Source: Spirochaetaceae bacterium (lineage in GTDB: Bacteria > Spirochaetota > Spirochaetia > DSM-27196 > PWMO01). From it: 46,476 nucleotides of DNA. This document shows, piece by piece, positions 28,521 through 34,981 of the stretch. Numbering within the stretch: position 1 is the stretch's first letter; the number at the start of each line of letters is the position of its first letter. Location of the stretch: NCBI GenBank assembly GCA_007693325.1, contig REDW01000110.1, positions 1 through 46,476 of the forward strand, given 5' to 3'. The notes beneath the pieces are model-generated. The model made no database searches, was not told the origin of the DNA, and saw only the letters and a list, made by a program, of their open reading frames with translations. The position numbers and the translations under genes are program-made.

Positions 28521-29900
28521 TCATCCGCCAAACGGAATCAGGCCAACCAGGCCGCGAATGTCCTCGTCGGTAAAACGGACGCCGCCGCCAAAGAAGAGCT
28601 CGCGACCCTGCTCGCTGAGAATGTTGTTCATACCGCCGGTCAGGTAGACCCAGTACCACGGCAGCTCCGCGGCGGGATCGTAGAACGGAAATATGGTACC
28701 GGTAGCCCGCAGATTGGGCTCATCATCCGCGCCAAAATCGAATACCTCGCCGGAGACCTGGAACGCGGGAAACGGCCGCAGGTCAACCCCGAAGCCGCCG
28801 CTGCTCTCTATCAGACCACCGCGCAGCGTTAGCGGGCCAAAGCTGCGTGCGATCTGGGCGTTGAACTTCACTTCATCGGTTGTGACGGTTTCTTCGGACA
28901 CCGTAGTGGTGGCCGCCCCTCCGTCGACGGTCTCGACTTCCTCGGTTGTACGGCTGCGGGTCACGCCGCCGGGGGTGTCCACCACGCCCAGTTCATAGTA
29001 GCCACGGCGGCTGCGCGGCAGCAACCGCAGCGAGAACGCGCTCTGCGCCTGCTCGCGCTCGCTCATATAGGCCGACTCGAATCCCACCTGCACACCCAGG
29101 CCGGTAATCTGGTGTACCAGCTCCTCGGTACTGCGCGCAACGCTGACCACGCGTTCGTAGAGTTCATCTTCGTATACTGCACGACCGATGTTGCCTTCTC
29201 CGCGGCGTACCGTTGCGGTGACGTCCTGAACGTCGTCCAGCGAACGGCGCAAGGAAGCGATTGAATCCTGGATGTCGGCATCGCGGTCGTCAACCATCAG
29301 CGCGATACGTTCTACCGTCAGCGCTACGCTGGCCAGTATCTCCGATACCTGCTGCAGGTCGTCCTCGGAACGCAGATCAACGCGTTCCAGAATGCGGTCA
29401 AAGCTCTCAAAGGTACGGTTCAGGACCACCATGTGCTGCCGGCGGATCTCGGCCAGCATTTCGACCATCTCCTGTCCGATCTCCCCGGTGATGTCAACCG
29501 TGCGTGCAAAATCGCCGCGCACTGAAACCTGTTCTATGCGGCCGCCGGCATCCAGCGAGGCGGCGCCGCTGCTGCCCGGATCGATAGAGATGATCGAGGT
29601 GCCCAGCAGCGAGGAAGCTTCCTTGTAGGCCGTGGCATCCTCATAGATAGCGATCTCGTCGGAAACCATAACGGACAGCCGCGCGCGGCCGTCCTGCAGT
29701 TCGATTGAGCGGATAGTGCCGATCGGTACGCCGGCCATGAAGATCTGCGAGTTGGTGGTCAGTCCGGATGCGTCATCCATCACTATCTCGACTTCGTAGG
29801 TGTTCCGGTCGCTGAATCCGTCACCGGACATCACAATGAAGACAACGCCGGCAACACCGGAAACCAGTACAAACAAACCTATCTTGGCTACTCTGGACAT
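28521..29900 (-). CDS. mlaD: MCE/MlaD-family protein with barrel-like C-terminal half
   Basis: A 459-residue substrate-binding component of an Mla-type lipid transporter. One hydrophobic anchor (about residues 5-24) precedes an MCE domain (about 36-115; IFMAGVPIGTIRSIEL, SSLLGTSIISIDPG). A long helical region (about 140-260) follows, as in MCE needles. The last 190 residues are unlike MlaD: repeated strand-turn-strand patterns (FSLRLLPRSRRGYYELGVV, FNAQIARSFGPLTLRGGLI, FQVSGEVFDFG) end in a Gly-rich strand, like an outer-membrane barrel. This hints at one protein bridging from inner to outer membrane. The ATG is 3 nt after the mlaF stop, with CAGGAAG as ribosome site; translational coupling is likely. 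Confidence 0.9.
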   Translation of the reverse strand: MSRVAKIGLFVLVSGVAGVVFIVMSGDGFSDRNTYEVEIVMDDASGLTTNSQIFMAGVPIGTIRSIELQDGRARLSVMVSDEIAIYEDATAYKEASSLLGTSIISIDPGSSGAASLDAGGRIEQVSVRGDFARTVDITGEIGQEMVEMLAEIRRQHMVVLNRTFESFDRILERVDLRSEDDLQQVSEILASVALTVERIALMVDDRDADIQDSIASLRRSLDDVQDVTATVRRGEGNIGRAVYEDELYERVVSVARSTEELVHQITGLGVQVGFESAYMSEREQAQSAFSLRLLPRSRRGYYELGVVDTPGGVTRSRTTEEVETVDGGAATTTVSEETVTTDEVKFNAQIARSFGPLTLRGGLIESSGGFGVDLRPFPAFQVSGEVFDFGADDEPNLRATGTIFPFYDPAAELPWYWVYLTGGMNNILSEQGRELFFGGGVRFTDEDIRGLVGLIPFGG

Positions 29901-29903
29901 ACC

Positions 29904-30656
29904 CTACACTTCCTGTGAGCTGAATGAATTCTCAACAAACTGGCGCACCATATCATGCTCCGACCGTATGACTTCTCGCGGCGGGCCCTGCGCGATTACC
30001 TCTCCCTGGTGCAGAAAGGCTACCTTGTCCGAAATGCGGAACGCTGCCGGGATGTCGTGCGTGATGAGGATGCACGTCAGTTCGAGTTCGCGATTGACCC
30101 GCACCACCAGGTCATTGATTGTCTGCCCCAGCACCGGGTCGAGTCCGCTGGTCGGCTCGTCGAACAGCAGGATCTCGGGTTTGATGGCCAGCGCTCGGGC
30201 AACTCCCACCCGCTTGCGCATACCGCCGGAGAGTTCGCTGGGGTTCTTGTCGCCGATGTCCGGCAATTCGATCCATTCCAGCATTTCGCGGACACGCTGC
30301 CTGATCTCGCGACGGTTCCTGATACCCAACACTTCGCGCAGCGGAAAAGCGATGTTCTCGGCCACGCTCATAGAGTCGAACAGTGCAGCATCCTGAAACG
30401 CGTAACCGAAGTTGCGCTGGACTAGTTCTTTCTCTTCTTCGGACATCTCCACCAGATCCTTACCCTTGTAGAACACCCGGCCCTCATCTGGAGCCATGAT
30501 TCCGATCATGCACTTGAACAGCACGCTCTTGCCGGTTCCGCTCTGCCCGATAATCGAGGTGATCTCCTTGCTCTCAAAGTCCAGGCTTATGCCACGCAGT
30601 ACATCGAGCGAATCAAACGATTTGGAAAGCTGTTCGAGCCGGATAATCGCACTCAA
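29904..30656 (-). CDS. mlaF: Mla-type ABC transporter ATPase
   Basis: A 250-residue ATPase that powers phospholipid movement by the MlaE permease. Walker A GQSGTGKS is at 37-44, the signature ELSGGM at 141-146 and Walker B plus D-loop FDEPTSGLDP at 165-174, all intact and of the MlaF type. Start is TTG 30656, overlapping the mlaE stop as TTGA; no better in-frame start exists nearby, and GGTGATG lies upstream. Use of TTG in a coupled pair may keep ATPase output low relative to permease. Order is mlaE-mlaF-mlaD; no mlaB, mlaC or mlaA is present. Confidence 0.94.
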   Translation of the reverse strand: MSAIIRLEQLSKSFDSLDVLRGISLDFESKEITSIIGQSGTGKSVLFKCMIGIMAPDEGRVFYKGKDLVEMSEEEKELVQRNFGYAFQDAALFDSMSVAENIAFPLREVLGIRNRREIRQRVREMLEWIELPDIGDKNPSELSGGMRKRVGVARALAIKPEILLFDEPTSGLDPVLGQTINDLVVRVNRELELTCILITHDIPAAFRISDKVAFLHQGEVIAQGPPREVIRSEHDMVRQFVENSFSSQEV

Positions 30657-31447
30657 TACATCACCGCCATCATCACCGTTGCCATCAGGTAGTCCGCGAT
30701 CAGAATCGAGACCGAGGACGCCACCACCGCGTGCGTCGAGCTCTCTCCCACGCCCCTGGCGCCGCTGAGAGAGTGAAGCCCGTGATAGGTGCAGATTGTG
30801 GAGACAATCACTCCCATCACCGCGGCCTTGATCAGCCCCGAGTAGACGTCGGTTGGCTGCAAGTCGCGGAACATCTGCGCCAGGTAGGTCGCCGCTTCCA
30901 GCTCATAGGCTCCGGTTGCAATCAGGAATGCACCCAGTACTCCAACAACGTTGGCCAGCAGCGTCAGCATTGGAAACATCACCAGCGACGCAATCACCCG
31001 CGGCACCACAAGGTAGTGAATAGGCTCTACCGACATAGTCTCCATGGCGTCGAGTTGTTCGGTAACTTTCATTGTGCCGAGTTCGGCAGCCATTGCCGAC
31101 CCGTTCTTGGCGATCAGCATCAGCGTGGTAACCACCGGCGCAAACTCACGCGACATCGACAGCGCCACCGCTGAACCGGTAGCGATCTCGGCGCGGAACG
31201 GCTGCAGAAATGAGATCATCTGCAGCGCGAAAATCATCCCAATTGCCAGGCTGGAGAGAGTAATGATCGGCACCGAGTCAACACCGATCTTCTCCATCTG
31301 CTCGAGGTAGAGCCGCACGCGCACCGGACGCTTGAACGTGTAGCGGACCACCTGCCCGAGGAACAGCACAAACCGGCCGGTCTGCTCCAGTTTCTCGATG
31401 GCAAAGTTACGGGCAACAACACTCTTGCTGGGCTTGATCAGGCGCAC
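30653..31447 (-). CDS. mlaE: Mla-type ABC transporter permease
   Basis: A 264-residue (if started at GTG 31447) inner-membrane permease of the MlaE family. The conserved blocks are LGQVVRYTFKRPVRVRLYLEQMEKIGVDSVPI, LMIAKNGSAMAAELGTMKVTEQLDAM and PRVIASLVMFPMLTLL; five or six hydrophobic helices are present. It handles phospholipid or related lipid exchange between membranes. The frame is open further upstream to 31537, but the predicted promoter at 31468-31496 would start the mRNA inside that extension, so a start near 31447 is preferred. An AGGA lies directly against the GTG, which is poor spacing; the exact start is uncertain. The operon continues with mlaF and mlaD. Confidence 0.88.
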   Translation of the reverse strand: MRLIKPSKSVVARNFAIEKLEQTGRFVLFLGQVVRYTFKRPVRVRLYLEQMEKIGVDSVPIITLSSLAIGMIFALQMISFLQPFRAEIATGSAVALSMSREFAPVVTTLMLIAKNGSAMAAELGTMKVTEQLDAMETMSVEPIHYLVVPRVIASLVMFPMLTLLANVVGVLGAFLIATGAYELEAATYLAQMFRDLQPTDVYSGLIKAAVMGVIVSTICTYHGLHSLSGARGVGESSTHAVVASSVSILIADYLMATVMMAVMY

Positions 31448-31467
31448 TCCTGTCTTGTCATTCCACA

Positions 31468-31496
31468 AAATTACCACTATTTGGGCGTGATTCCAA
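31468..31496 (-). promoter_or_regulatory. Promoter of mlaEFD operon
   Basis: On the minus strand TTGGAA (31491-31496) and TAATTT (31468-31473) are 17 bp apart, 20 nt before the GTG of mlaE. The divergent MhqO-like gene may use TTGACG (31515-31520) with a weak -10. Confidence 0.5.
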
Positions 31497-31566
31497 ACGT
31501 GGCGCTGACCCCGGTTGACGATACGGCAGCAAATCACGGATCTTTAGCGAGGGAGAATATGACAAA

Positions 31567-32529
31567 ATGATGAATACCAACGGCATACACCATATCACCG
31601 CGATTGCCGGTGACCCGCAGCAGAACCTCGATTTCTACGCGGGGGTGCTCGGTATGCGCCTGGTGAAGCGTTCGGTCAACCAGGATGTTCCGGACACCTA
31701 CCACCTCTTCTACGCCGATGCCGCAGGCAATCCGGGAACCGACCTGACGTTCTTTCCGTGGCCGGCGCTGGCGCCGGTCAAGCGCGGTGCCGGACAGTGG
31801 GACGAGGTCGCGCTTGGGGTACCGGCGGGGTCACTGGAGTACTGGCGCAGCCGAATCACAGCAGCGGGGGCGCCCGGGGCGGTTTCGGTGGGTGAGATCG
31901 TGACACGTTTTGGTGAACGGGTGCTGCCGTTCAGCGATCCGCACGGGCTGCAGCTGGCGCTGGTGGAAGACCAGAGCTACGAGGGTTTTGTTTCTGAACC
32001 GTGGCACGATAGCGCGGTCCCGGTTGACAAACAGATTCGCTCTCTGGCGGGTGTGCGCCTGGTGGAGCAGAGCGGCGAACCGAGCGTGAGTTTTCTGGCT
32101 GAATCGCTGGGATTTCGCGCCGGCGCCAGTGAGGACGGATGGCAACGCTTCACGGTGGGTGAAGGCGCAAGCGGCCAGCGCATCGATCTGAAGCTGGACC
32201 GCGACGCACCGCGCGGACAGTGGGGTGTGGGTGCGGTGCACCACGTTGCCTGGCGTGTGCCCGATACTGAAGCTCAGAGCGCGGTGCAGCGCGCAATCGC
32301 GGCGGCCGGCGGCCGCCCGACGCAGGTGATTGACCGTTTCTGGTTCCGCTCGGTCTATGTCAATGAACCCGGCGGCGCGCTGCTCGAGGTGGCTACCGAC
32401 GGGCCGGGATTCAGTGTTGACGAGGCGCCGCAGAACCTCGGAGAGTCGCTGGTGCTGCCCGAATGGCTCGAGCCGCAGCGCACACAGATCGAAGCCGCGT
32501 TGCCACCGCTGTCCTGGCCGCGCGGATAG
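31567..32529 (+). CDS. VOC-family dioxygenase-like protein, MhqO type
   Basis: A 320-residue soluble protein of two vicinal-oxygen-chelate modules. It starts GIHHITAIAGDPQQNLDFYAGVLGMRLVKRSVNQD, the hallmark of the MhqO/MhqA ring-cleaving dioxygenase-like group. Likely metal ligands are His8 or His9 in the first module, the His of VHHVAWRVPD and the Glu of PGGALLEVATD in the second. Relatives protect against quinones and are induced by hydroquinones, but substrates are not proven here. ATG 31567 (or 31570) follows GAGGGAG by 11 nt. It is divergent from mlaE. A link to the quinone genes at 7291 is possible but only inferred. Confidence 0.88.
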   Translation: MMNTNGIHHITAIAGDPQQNLDFYAGVLGMRLVKRSVNQDVPDTYHLFYADAAGNPGTDLTFFPWPALAPVKRGAGQWDEVALGVPAGSLEYWRSRITAAGAPGAVSVGEIVTRFGERVLPFSDPHGLQLALVEDQSYEGFVSEPWHDSAVPVDKQIRSLAGVRLVEQSGEPSVSFLAESLGFRAGASEDGWQRFTVGEGASGQRIDLKLDRDAPRGQWGVGAVHHVAWRVPDTEAQSAVQRAIAAAGGRPTQVIDRFWFRSVYVNEPGGALLEVATDGPGFSVDEAPQNLGESLVLPEWLEPQRTQIEAALPPLSWPRG

Positions 32530-32575: not shown

Positions 32576-34981
32576 ATGAGAAAGCGAACCAGATACGCAC
32601 TCATTATGGGCGCGGTCCTTACGGCCGTTGCCATCATCTCTATCACGCTACTGATGCCGTGGCTGGTGCGATCTGTGCTCGAGTCGCGCGTGGGGCACTA
32701 CGAGCAGCGCTGGGGTGTTGAAGCCGGCTTCCAGAGGTTGCGCGTGGTCTCGCGACGCACTGTTGTGTTGGAGCAGTTTACGGTTACTGACCGCCACGGT
32801 GAAACAGAGATCTTTGCGGAGCGCGTTGAGATATCGGTACGGCCGCTTGCGCTGCTGCGCGGGTCGGCGCAACTCGATAACCTGAGCGCCAGCGGGATAC
32901 GCGTTGTGCTTGCAGCAGAAGACGGCGGCAGGTTTGACGCATCAGCGTCGGCAATGCAGCTACGCAATCAAACCGTTATCGAGGTTTTCGATCCGCAGCT
33001 TGGAGCCTCGGCTGCTTCATCCGGCACGCAGCGTATCCTGTTGGACGCTCGCCTCGTGCGCGGACAGCTGTCCGCACCGCTGCAGCGCGGACAGCAGCCG
33101 TCGCTGGCCCAACTGACCGCTGATCAACCGCAGCTGGACCTTTCCGAGGCAGAACCGTGGCACCAACTACAGGCGCTGCTGCGCGGGCTCAAAGGGCGTC
33201 TGGTGCCGGCCGCTTCTGCGGCAGGATCCGCGGTGCAGGGGGGCGGCGGCGCGGCACACATCCTGCGGACGCTGTTGGCGCATCTGCCACAAACGGTGGA
33301 AGTTCACGAGGCCGAGGTCACGCTTAACGCCGGAGTTTCGAGCCTGTTTGACCTGCAGTATGAGCACTGTCTGGCAGATCGGATGGTGAGAGTGAAAACC
33401 GCGGGCCGCCTGCATGACGCTGTGAGTCCTTCCGGTTCCTGGAATGTCGACAAGAGCGTGTGGTACAATCACGTAACCGTTGACGGCCGCAGCAGTCTGG
33501 ATGCACTCGATCTGAACGTAGTCACCCGGGCGCTCGGCGGCAGCCGCAGCGCAGGGTTTGAGCAGGGACTCCTCGACCTCACACTCGCGGCACACAGCGC
33601 CAACAACCCTGACAGCGTGGCGTTGAGCGGCCGGATGTTCCTGCGCGATGCGGCGCTGCTGCTGCCTCGCGTTGCCGACGGGCTCATCGAGGTGCCCGAG
33701 ATTTCGTATCGCTTCAGGGCAGCCCTCGATGGAAATGCCGAGGTTGGGCCGCCGCGGATGTATCAACCTCTGCCGCTCGAGGCCGTTACGGTTTCTGCTG
33801 CGCCGCCGCGGCGCGGCGAACTGGTCTTTGATCACGGCGCGCTGCGCCTTGGAACACTGGAGGTTGAGTTCCGTCCGGCGCTACGCGGCTTCGGCAAACC
33901 GGGGCAACTCCCGGAGCGCGTGGAGCTGCAACTCGAGATTGCGCCGAGCGCTATCGCAGAGATCATCGAGACGTTTCCCGCGGTGTTGCTCGGGCCGTTA
34001 GCCGGAGTCCAGGCCGAGGGAACCCTCGCGTGGAAGCTCGACTTTGAGAGTCCCACCGAATCTATCTCGCGCATGCAGTGGAGGTCGGAAATATCGTTGC
34101 AAGACTTCACGCTGCTTGATATTCCCGATGAGATCAACGTGTTCCGGCTGGGGGGGCCGTTTATCCACCGGATCAGCGATCCTGCGGTCGATTATCATCG
34201 GGTAGTGCGTGTGCCGCAGACCCGACCGGCCTCGCTGCGCTGGCTGACCGATAGCGCCGGTCTGTCGCTCGAGCAGGCGTGGCAGGTTCGGCAGCGGGCG
34301 CATTCGGCGCCGCCGGCACCAACGGTCCCTCGATCATCATCCATCCACCGCTTCAGCAGCGATTCTGCCGAACGCCCCGATCGGTCGTATCGTTATGTGC
34401 CCCTGGGTTCCATCTCCCCCTGGCTGGTACGCGCGGTTCTGACCGCGGAAGACGGAGACTTCTTCGATCACCGCGGCGTGAACTGGAACGCCGTCCGACG
34501 CGCGGTGGAGTACAACGTAGAGGTTGGCGAGTATGTCTTTGGTGCCAGCACTATCAGCATGCAATTGGCCAAGAACCTCTTTCTGGGCAACGAGCGCCAG
34601 TTTGCGCGCAAACTGCAGGAGTTCCTGCTGGTGATGCTGATGGAGGAGGCGGCGGCAATCCCCAAGGAGCGCCTGCTCGAGATCTACCTCAACGTAATCG
34701 AGTTTGGCCCCGGAATCTTTGGCGTCTACGATGCCGCCCGGCACTATTTTGGCGTGCAGCCGCGTGACCTCGATGCCGCCGAGGCGGCGTGGCTTGCCAC
34801 CATTGTGCCGGCACCCAAGCTGCACTACCACCACTACCGCAACGGTGAGATATCAGATCACTGGTTTGCCCGTATGCAGCAGTTGCTCTACGGGATGTAC
34901 AAGCGCGAGCGCATGACCAAAGAGCAGTACCGGCACGCGAGTCAATCCAGACCGCAGTTTGCGGTCTCTGCGGATCGCTGA
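32576..34981 (+). CDS. AsmA-like protein fused to GT51 peptidoglycan glycosyltransferase
   Basis: An 801-residue protein. A membrane anchor (about residues 7-32) is followed by about 550 residues of beta-rich sequence resembling AsmA/DUF748 proteins (for example AERVEISVRPLALLRGSAQLDNLSASGIRVVL, a typical pattern). Residues of about 600-800 are a GT51 domain as in MtgA and class A penicillin-binding proteins: catalytic Glu625 in AEDGDFFDHRG, GASTISMQLAKNLFL, RKLQEFLLVMLMEE, and LLEIYLNVIEFG. GT51 polymerises lipid II into glycan chains on the periplasmic face. There is no transpeptidase domain. AsmA-like proteins are linked to lipid transfer to the outer membrane, so the fusion suggests coupling of wall and outer-membrane growth (inference). 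Confidence 0.88.
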   Translation: MRKRTRYALIMGAVLTAVAIISITLLMPWLVRSVLESRVGHYEQRWGVEAGFQRLRVVSRRTVVLEQFTVTDRHGETEIFAERVEISVRPLALLRGSAQLDNLSASGIRVVLAAEDGGRFDASASAMQLRNQTVIEVFDPQLGASAASSGTQRILLDARLVRGQLSAPLQRGQQPSLAQLTADQPQLDLSEAEPWHQLQALLRGLKGRLVPAASAAGSAVQGGGGAAHILRTLLAHLPQTVEVHEAEVTLNAGVSSLFDLQYEHCLADRMVRVKTAGRLHDAVSPSGSWNVDKSVWYNHVTVDGRSSLDALDLNVVTRALGGSRSAGFEQGLLDLTLAAHSANNPDSVALSGRMFLRDAALLLPRVADGLIEVPEISYRFRAALDGNAEVGPPRMYQPLPLEAVTVSAAPPRRGELVFDHGALRLGTLEVEFRPALRGFGKPGQLPERVELQLEIAPSAIAEIIETFPAVLLGPLAGVQAEGTLAWKLDFESPTESISRMQWRSEISLQDFTLLDIPDEINVFRLGGPFIHRISDPAVDYHRVVRVPQTRPASLRWLTDSAGLSLEQAWQVRQRAHSAPPAPTVPRSSSIHRFSSDSAERPDRSYRYVPLGSISPWLVRAVLTAEDGDFFDHRGVNWNAVRRAVEYNVEVGEYVFGASTISMQLAKNLFLGNERQFARKLQEFLLVMLMEEAAAIPKERLLEIYLNVIEFGPGIFGVYDAARHYFGVQPRDLDAAEAAWLATIVPAPKLHYHHYRNGEISDHWFARMQQLLYGMYKRERMTKEQYRHASQSRPQFAVSADR

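Follow-up and report, generated by a model that had tools for sequence, protein, structure and literature searches.

A conserved bacterial protein joins a putative AsmA-superfamily groove to a peptidoglycan glycosyltransferase

Results

A fusion gene beside an Mla-type operon

The window, namely the whole stretch of 46,476 nucleotides analysed here, is a contig of a draft Spirochaetota assembly (97.5% complete, 150 contigs). On its forward strand, a gene at 32576..34981, whose start (ATG) and end had been correctly placed in the preliminary description, encodes 801 residues followed by a stop codon, and its translation, Pfam and NCBIfam matches, homologs and AlphaFold2 model divide the product into a membrane helix, a predicted AsmA-superfamily groove and a GT51 domain. 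The sole transmembrane segment, assigned by hydropathy and AlphaFold2, comprises residues 5-33 (32588..32674, +; helix 3-46 in the model). On the opposite strand, Pfam identifies a neighbouring Mla-type operon (28521..31537, -) composed of an MlaD/MCE gene (28521-29900), an ABC ATPase (29904-30656) and an MlaE permease (30653-31537), and a glyoxalase-family gene (31567-32529) stands between this operon and the fusion gene.

The GT51 peptidoglycan glycosyltransferase domain occupies residues 602-773 (34379..34894, +), where PF00912 scores 158.8 bits against a cut-off of 27 (E 1.2e-46). The best NCBIfam match of the protein is the MtgA model TIGR02070 (E 2e-49), with a score of 168.1 bits that lies below the curated cut-off of 182.65; the Aquifex aeolicus PBP1A structure matches the domain at E 1.6e-25, and Foldseek against the PDB likewise matches the C-terminus of the predicted model with GT51 structures, including 3nb6. 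In a phmmer alignment, Glu625 (34448..34450, +) and Glu682 (34619..34621, +) pair with two glutamates of the Aquifex PBP1A structure 2oqo, which we take to be E83 and E140, with active-site roles. Both residues, together with S658, T659, M662 and Q663 of the GASTISMQ motif (residues 656-663, 34541..34564, +; homolog alignment) and with R678 and K679, are invariant in 75 homologs from several phyla. Hence the complete GT51 domain with Glu625 and STISMQ that had been claimed earlier is borne out by a full-length PF00912 match and by the invariant residues, and, as judged from the sequence, this is unmistakably a complete GT51 with both active-site residues intact. Pfam gave no transpeptidase hit in the fusion protein, whose C-terminus lies 28 residues past the GT51 match.

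Evidence for an AsmA-superfamily groove

The preceding part of the protein had been described as about 550 residues of AsmA/DUF748-like sequence. In the window protein, Pfam matches of this kind are confined to the region of residues 1-129 and fall below the curated cut-offs, with 28 bits against 50 for DUF748 (E 7.6e-7) and 18 bits against 29.8 for AsmA (E 1.4e-3), and most of the groove past residue 130 has no significant sequence match. A chorein-N-like, DUF748/AsmA N-terminal region is placed at residues 2-123 (32579..32944, +) by PF05359 (E 7.6e-7) and by the hhalign comparison described below. As a yardstick, an undoubted TamB of the single-contig genome G011 scores only 27.3 bits against DUF748, and the kinship of DUF748 with AsmA and TamB was shown earlier (PMC4494059). 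Across the family, DUF748 is matched at E<=0.01 by 33 of 56 homologs (best 5e-16), while other AsmA-type matches comprise AsmA in six homologs, YdbH-like in two and YhdP in one.

A profile built from the groove part of the 75 aligned sequences was compared by hhalign with individual Escherichia coli proteins and gave matches to TamB (E 1.3e-4), AsmA (4.1e-4) and YhdP (4.5e-3), all of them N-terminus to N-terminus, versus E-values of at least 0.03 for 20 controls consisting of 12 unrelated E. coli proteins or fragments and eight shuffled or reversed sequences; E. coli YdbH did not match the groove profile (E 0.18). Through its positions 4-200, the family profile also picks up further large genes, similar in size to TamB/AsmA, in four genomes. 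A groove-only alignment of 11 rows contained no stretch conserved enough for a scan of the collection. Membership of the AsmA superfamily is therefore weak from the single sequence and firmer across the family, as far as profile similarity can establish it, and the earlier claim holds by sequence for the first ~130 residues, with the remainder carried by the structural model and the family profile.

The AlphaFold2 model built on the family alignment (mean pLDDT 83.8, pTM 0.75) places helix 3-46 first, then long strands from 48 to 546, and finally an all-alpha GT51; the groove modelled alone reaches a pLDDT of 80. The amphipathic strands of the predicted beta-groove lie within residues 48-515 (32717..34120, +), and their hydrophobicity alternates more than in permutations (permutation p about 0.002-0.003, with 0.0015 for the family and 0.003 for the window). 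Residues 131-222 (32966..33241, +) form a low-confidence stretch by pLDDT and, by the spans between landmarks, the most length-variable groove part in the family. In Foldseek searches of the PDB, the groove alone had no match below E 1e-3, and the matches ranked by E-value were mostly generic beta-barrels with near-random TM-scores; the matches of highest probability, also of low TM-score, were LptA (1.00), LptD (0.80), ApoB (0.69) and LPD-3 (0.44). All four are lipid carriers: LptA and LptD carry LPS, and LPD-3 is a bridge protein. The model, which was proposed beforehand as the test of an AsmA beta-groove, is strand-rich and groove-like in the order of its elements, and a groove in the middle part of the protein is likely on this prediction.

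Anatomy of the family

Hydropathy reveals an N-terminal hydrophobic helix in 66 of 72 complete members, and none of the 72 has a hydrophobic segment within the 150 residues upstream of GT51; among stand-alone GT51 enzymes with inspected N-terminal parts, many show a hydrophobic helix 30-60 residues before the domain. As in the AsmA superfamily, the helix of the fusion protein is followed by the chorein-N-like region.

The C-terminal end of the groove forms a length-locked block (residues 421-529, 33836..34162, +) that contains P468 and G482, the latter invariant in the 75-sequence alignment. Between its landmarks, the span 421-468 measures 43-44 residues in most members, 468-482 exactly 15 in 75/75 and 482-529 47-49. 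The subsequent span from 529 to the catalytic Glu625 is 41-42 residues in 65 of the 75, and that from 625 to 682 is exactly 58 in all of them, whereas the region 113-240 ranges in length from about 45 to 226 (5th to 95th percentile). Locked C-terminal spans together with a variable N-terminal half indicate that the groove end and the enzyme behave as one unit, and the mostly fixed spacing implies that in most members the polymerase is joined almost directly to the end of the groove. The joint itself is a predicted beta-hairpin (residues 529-546, 34160..34213, +; AlphaFold2, spans and class A PBP alignment). This hairpin is perhaps the counterpart of the one that precedes GT51 in class A PBPs, and it could belong to GT51, because part of it aligns without gaps with three of these proteins.

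The main exceptions to this spacing are the Spirochaete-Bradymonad members, in which the span 529-625 extends to 82-263 residues (97 in the window), and only in this clade is the insert or linker long (residues 547-606, 34214..34393, +; from spans between landmarks). In the clade of the window the insert amounts to about 55 residues and is partly disordered, which could allow GT51 to bend back as far as the inner membrane. The longest inserts were observed in the Bradymonad-type loci L057, L059 and L061, with 152-263 residues between the equivalents of F529 and E625. The groove itself has a median of 434 residues in Bacteroidota and about 500 in the window, and some Myxococcota N-terminal parts reach about 1000 residues.

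Distribution and origin of the fusion

The genome of the window carries three GT51 genes, namely the fusion and two class A PBPs, and encodes its own TamB as well. The fusion occurs in 12 of 20 relatives from its genus, family and order, and in 3 of 198 genomes, including the window, of a wider phylum sample, in which it is confined to the window's order. Among contigs from 84,980 genomes scanned with GT51 patterns, the best 80 loci, which were kept, belong to Spirochaetota, Myxococcota and Bacteroidota, with one Krumholzibacteria and one Desulfuromonas (Thermodesulfobacteriota), and in 80/80 a groove sequence precedes GT51; splitting of the two parts in close relatives, which had been named as a possible refutation, was thus not seen among these best hits. 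Groove sequence is present even in L076 and L090, which lie at contig ends, and in L131, which has no N-terminus and is perhaps frameshifted. The fusion was further found in 9 of 60 additional genomes from the phylum of Flavobacterium and, in one to three copies, in 24 of 38 genomes, including the seed, from the phylum of Sorangium. All inspected genomes with the fusion also carry other GT51 genes, either class A PBPs or stand-alone enzymes.

Several loci merit separate mention. Bacteroidota GT51 proteins of ~300 residues were considered as split relatives for their high scores, but they fall outside the fusion clade and have no groove. Distinct stand-alone GT51 proteins of 300-350 aa were also observed in Bacteroidota at L162-L168 (G374, G370, G342, G333, G354, G358 and G366), with a conserved NPxxTAFMEYRExxW motif after the membrane helix and no fusion seen in those genomes. 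One congeneric copy (L006, G002:C58) has an in-frame TGA around locus position 1080, between groove and GT51, which leaves open frames of 359 and 279 aa and reflects either an assembly error or a decayed gene. In family f17 of the same class, at least 20 genomes have no match to the GT51-containing profile; these are probably Spirochaetes without class A PBPs.

In a quick GT51 tree without bootstrap, whose fused set was collected by similarity to the window's family and so favours a clade, the 62 fused domains form one clade (SH-aLRT 95) that excludes 23 domains of class A PBPs and 16 of stand-alone enzymes. An equally quick second tree, enlarged by two fusions and by 18 stand-alone enzymes from Bacteroidota, kept this clade with an SH-aLRT of 94. 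MtgA lies on the same side of the tree as the fusions. The single clade suggests that the fusion arose once and was then kept, and on these sequence comparisons a single origin with retention across at least five phyla is probable. Bradymonad members branch adjoining or inside the Spirochaete ones, which makes transfer between phyla possible.

Gene neighbourhood

The order of Mla-type operon, glyoxalase-family gene and fusion recurs in the congeneric genome G001 (L141), and the operon is not beside the fusion in the congeneric G003 nor in other genera; since it is common only to G001, it was not taken as evidence of function. In the single-contig genome G011, the fusion is followed immediately downstream, on the opposite strand, by a pair of genes for TamA (Omp85/POTRA) and TamB (L135:10957-17018). 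Near the gene at L058, what first resembled an Mla-type ATPase was discarded, as it looks like an ABC-F protein in the fuller region of the contig. Across the neighbourhoods of 78 members, no partner gene is conserved beyond the genus, and the link to lipid transport drawn from gene neighbourhood is suggestive only.

Discussion

Based on these findings, the joining of an AsmA-type groove to a peptidoglycan glycosyltransferase, as read from the DNA at the outset, finds support in the sequence, in the predicted structure and in the family. The fusion is real and conserved, and in our searches of the open literature no paper describing an AsmA-GT51 fusion was found; a Flavobacterium johnsoniae study that lists AsmA-like proteins, five of them extra, mentions no transglycosylase or glycosyltransferase (PMC12045153). 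The surmise that a similar fusion is already catalogued with no described role proved right: WP_121956505.1 of Parabacteroides distasonis (652 aa), named 'biosynthetic peptidoglycan transglycosylase' in RefSeq, has the same architecture, and its annotation names the enzyme part alone, with neither groove nor role. In tblastn with a Pontibacter member as query, the match to it spans 92% of the query at 35% identity. The architecture is built of two known kinds, the AsmA-type groove and GT51, and the family anatomy, namely the position of the helix and the locked spacing, is newly described here.

The fusion resembles MtgA in having one GT51 and no transpeptidase domain. However, the short membrane helix of MtgA directly precedes GT51, whereas that of the fusion lies several hundred residues away with the groove in between, and in the GT51 tree the fused domains have a clade of their own. 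With the class A PBPs (PBP1a, PBP1b and PbpC) the protein shares the GT51 catalytic domain, but carries it at the C-terminus rather than just past the membrane helix, and without a transpeptidase. With the AsmA superfamily (AsmA, TamB, YhdP, YdbH; DUF748) it shares the inner-membrane helix, the chorein-N-like start and the run of amphipathic strands, but its C-terminus is an enzyme instead of an outer-membrane contact, and its groove is shorter than that of TamB or YhdP.

The substrate of GT51 enzymes, which are the target of moenomycin, is lipid II, whose polyprenyl tail lies in the inner membrane. We tentatively propose, at somewhat short of even confidence, that the fusion protein is an inner-membrane-anchored monofunctional GT51 polymerase whose lipid groove serves the enzyme. 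The groove would replace the usual short connection between membrane and enzyme. A lipid, most probably lipid II by its polyprenyl tail or else the carrier once spent, would enter it at the inner membrane and be held in the groove or guided towards the active site of GT51, which would allow the enzyme to work at the far end of the groove without an adjacent helix keeping it on the membrane. Most simply read, a groove that takes the place of the membrane helix of other GT51 enzymes and has the polymerase at its far end would present a lipid to that polymerase, with lipid II as the obvious candidate. The product would be uncrosslinked glycan strands for separate transpeptidases, as expected from the absence of a transpeptidase domain in the fusion. 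A more specific version, which we regard as possible and distinctly less secure, is that the groove lifts lipid II to, or returns the carrier from, a GT51 held several nanometres off the membrane, with glycan made nearer to the wall. AsmA-type proteins have their start at the inner membrane, and their groove is considered to accommodate lipid tails (PMC8593681, PMC11226057).

The groove might instead be a passive or regulatory arm, serving as a spacer, docking or sensing domain with no movement of lipid, in analogy to UB2H in PBP1b, and positioning GT51 or binding partners; we consider this conceivable, though rather improbable. The free length variation of the N-terminal half and the partly disordered Spirochaete insert are consistent with such an arm, and short AsmA paralogs have, to our knowledge, no established transport role. 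Yet a junction of locked length is more than a simple spacer would call for, and the retention of predicted amphipathic strands and a chorein-like start over great divergence suggests lipid binding.

According to the preliminary description, the groove would provide the outer membrane with phospholipid as GT51 lengthens the wall, both coupled in one molecule, and this we now regard as unlikely. Phospholipid supply in E. coli does need the AsmA-superfamily proteins TamB, YhdP and YdbH (PMC8593681, PMC8912898), and the suggestion draws further on the MlaD-ATPase-MlaE genes adjoining the fusion in the window and one congeneric genome, on the TamA/TamB pair in G011 and on the long Myxococcota N-terminal parts. 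However, more than 700 residues are cited as enough for TamB, YhdP and YdbH to cross the periplasm (PMC8593681), and compared with these bridges the groove is too short in most members, with about 500 residues in the window protein, and its distal end is taken up by the C-terminal GT51. An upright groove of 17-20 strands at a spacing of about 0.48 nm would be an estimated 8-10 nm long, not enough to span the periplasm, and this length with an enzyme at the distal end argues against outer-membrane supply. The lipid-gene neighbourhood is kept only within the genus, and the genome's own TamB could do the job. Given also the lack of a second membrane segment near GT51 in all 72 members and the spacing locked in most of them from the last groove strands into GT51, we infer that a groove handling lipid II or its carrier for the polymerase is a better reading than one that bridges to the outer membrane with phospholipid.

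It is very improbable that GT51 has lost its polymerase activity and serves an AsmA-type transporter as a terminal piece that binds lipid or wall: the other GT51 genes of the inspected genomes imply that its activity may be dispensable, but both glutamates and the motif residues around them are invariant across phyla. An assembly error or the fortuitous union of two genes, conceivable for a contig of such a fragmented draft, is practically negligible, as the fusion is stop-free in a congeneric protein of 87% identity, present in the single-contig genomes G007 and G011, and joined in every one of the 80 best hits.

How wall synthesis and envelope lipid traffic keep in step is an open question, and an apparently single-origin, widespread fusion makes a link between wall and lipid directly testable in one protein. 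We know of no polymerase fed by a lipid conduit, and the evidence gathered here is a hint that wall building may be fed or controlled by a lipid groove; if true, an AsmA-family groove would be working for an enzyme and not bridging membranes. The fusion occurs in genera with cultured members, namely Flavobacterium, Pontibacter and Parabacteroides. In the Myxococcota phylum, many genomes encode the fusion as two or three paralogs, whose open frames span about 717 to 1512 aa, which indicates that groove length diversified there.
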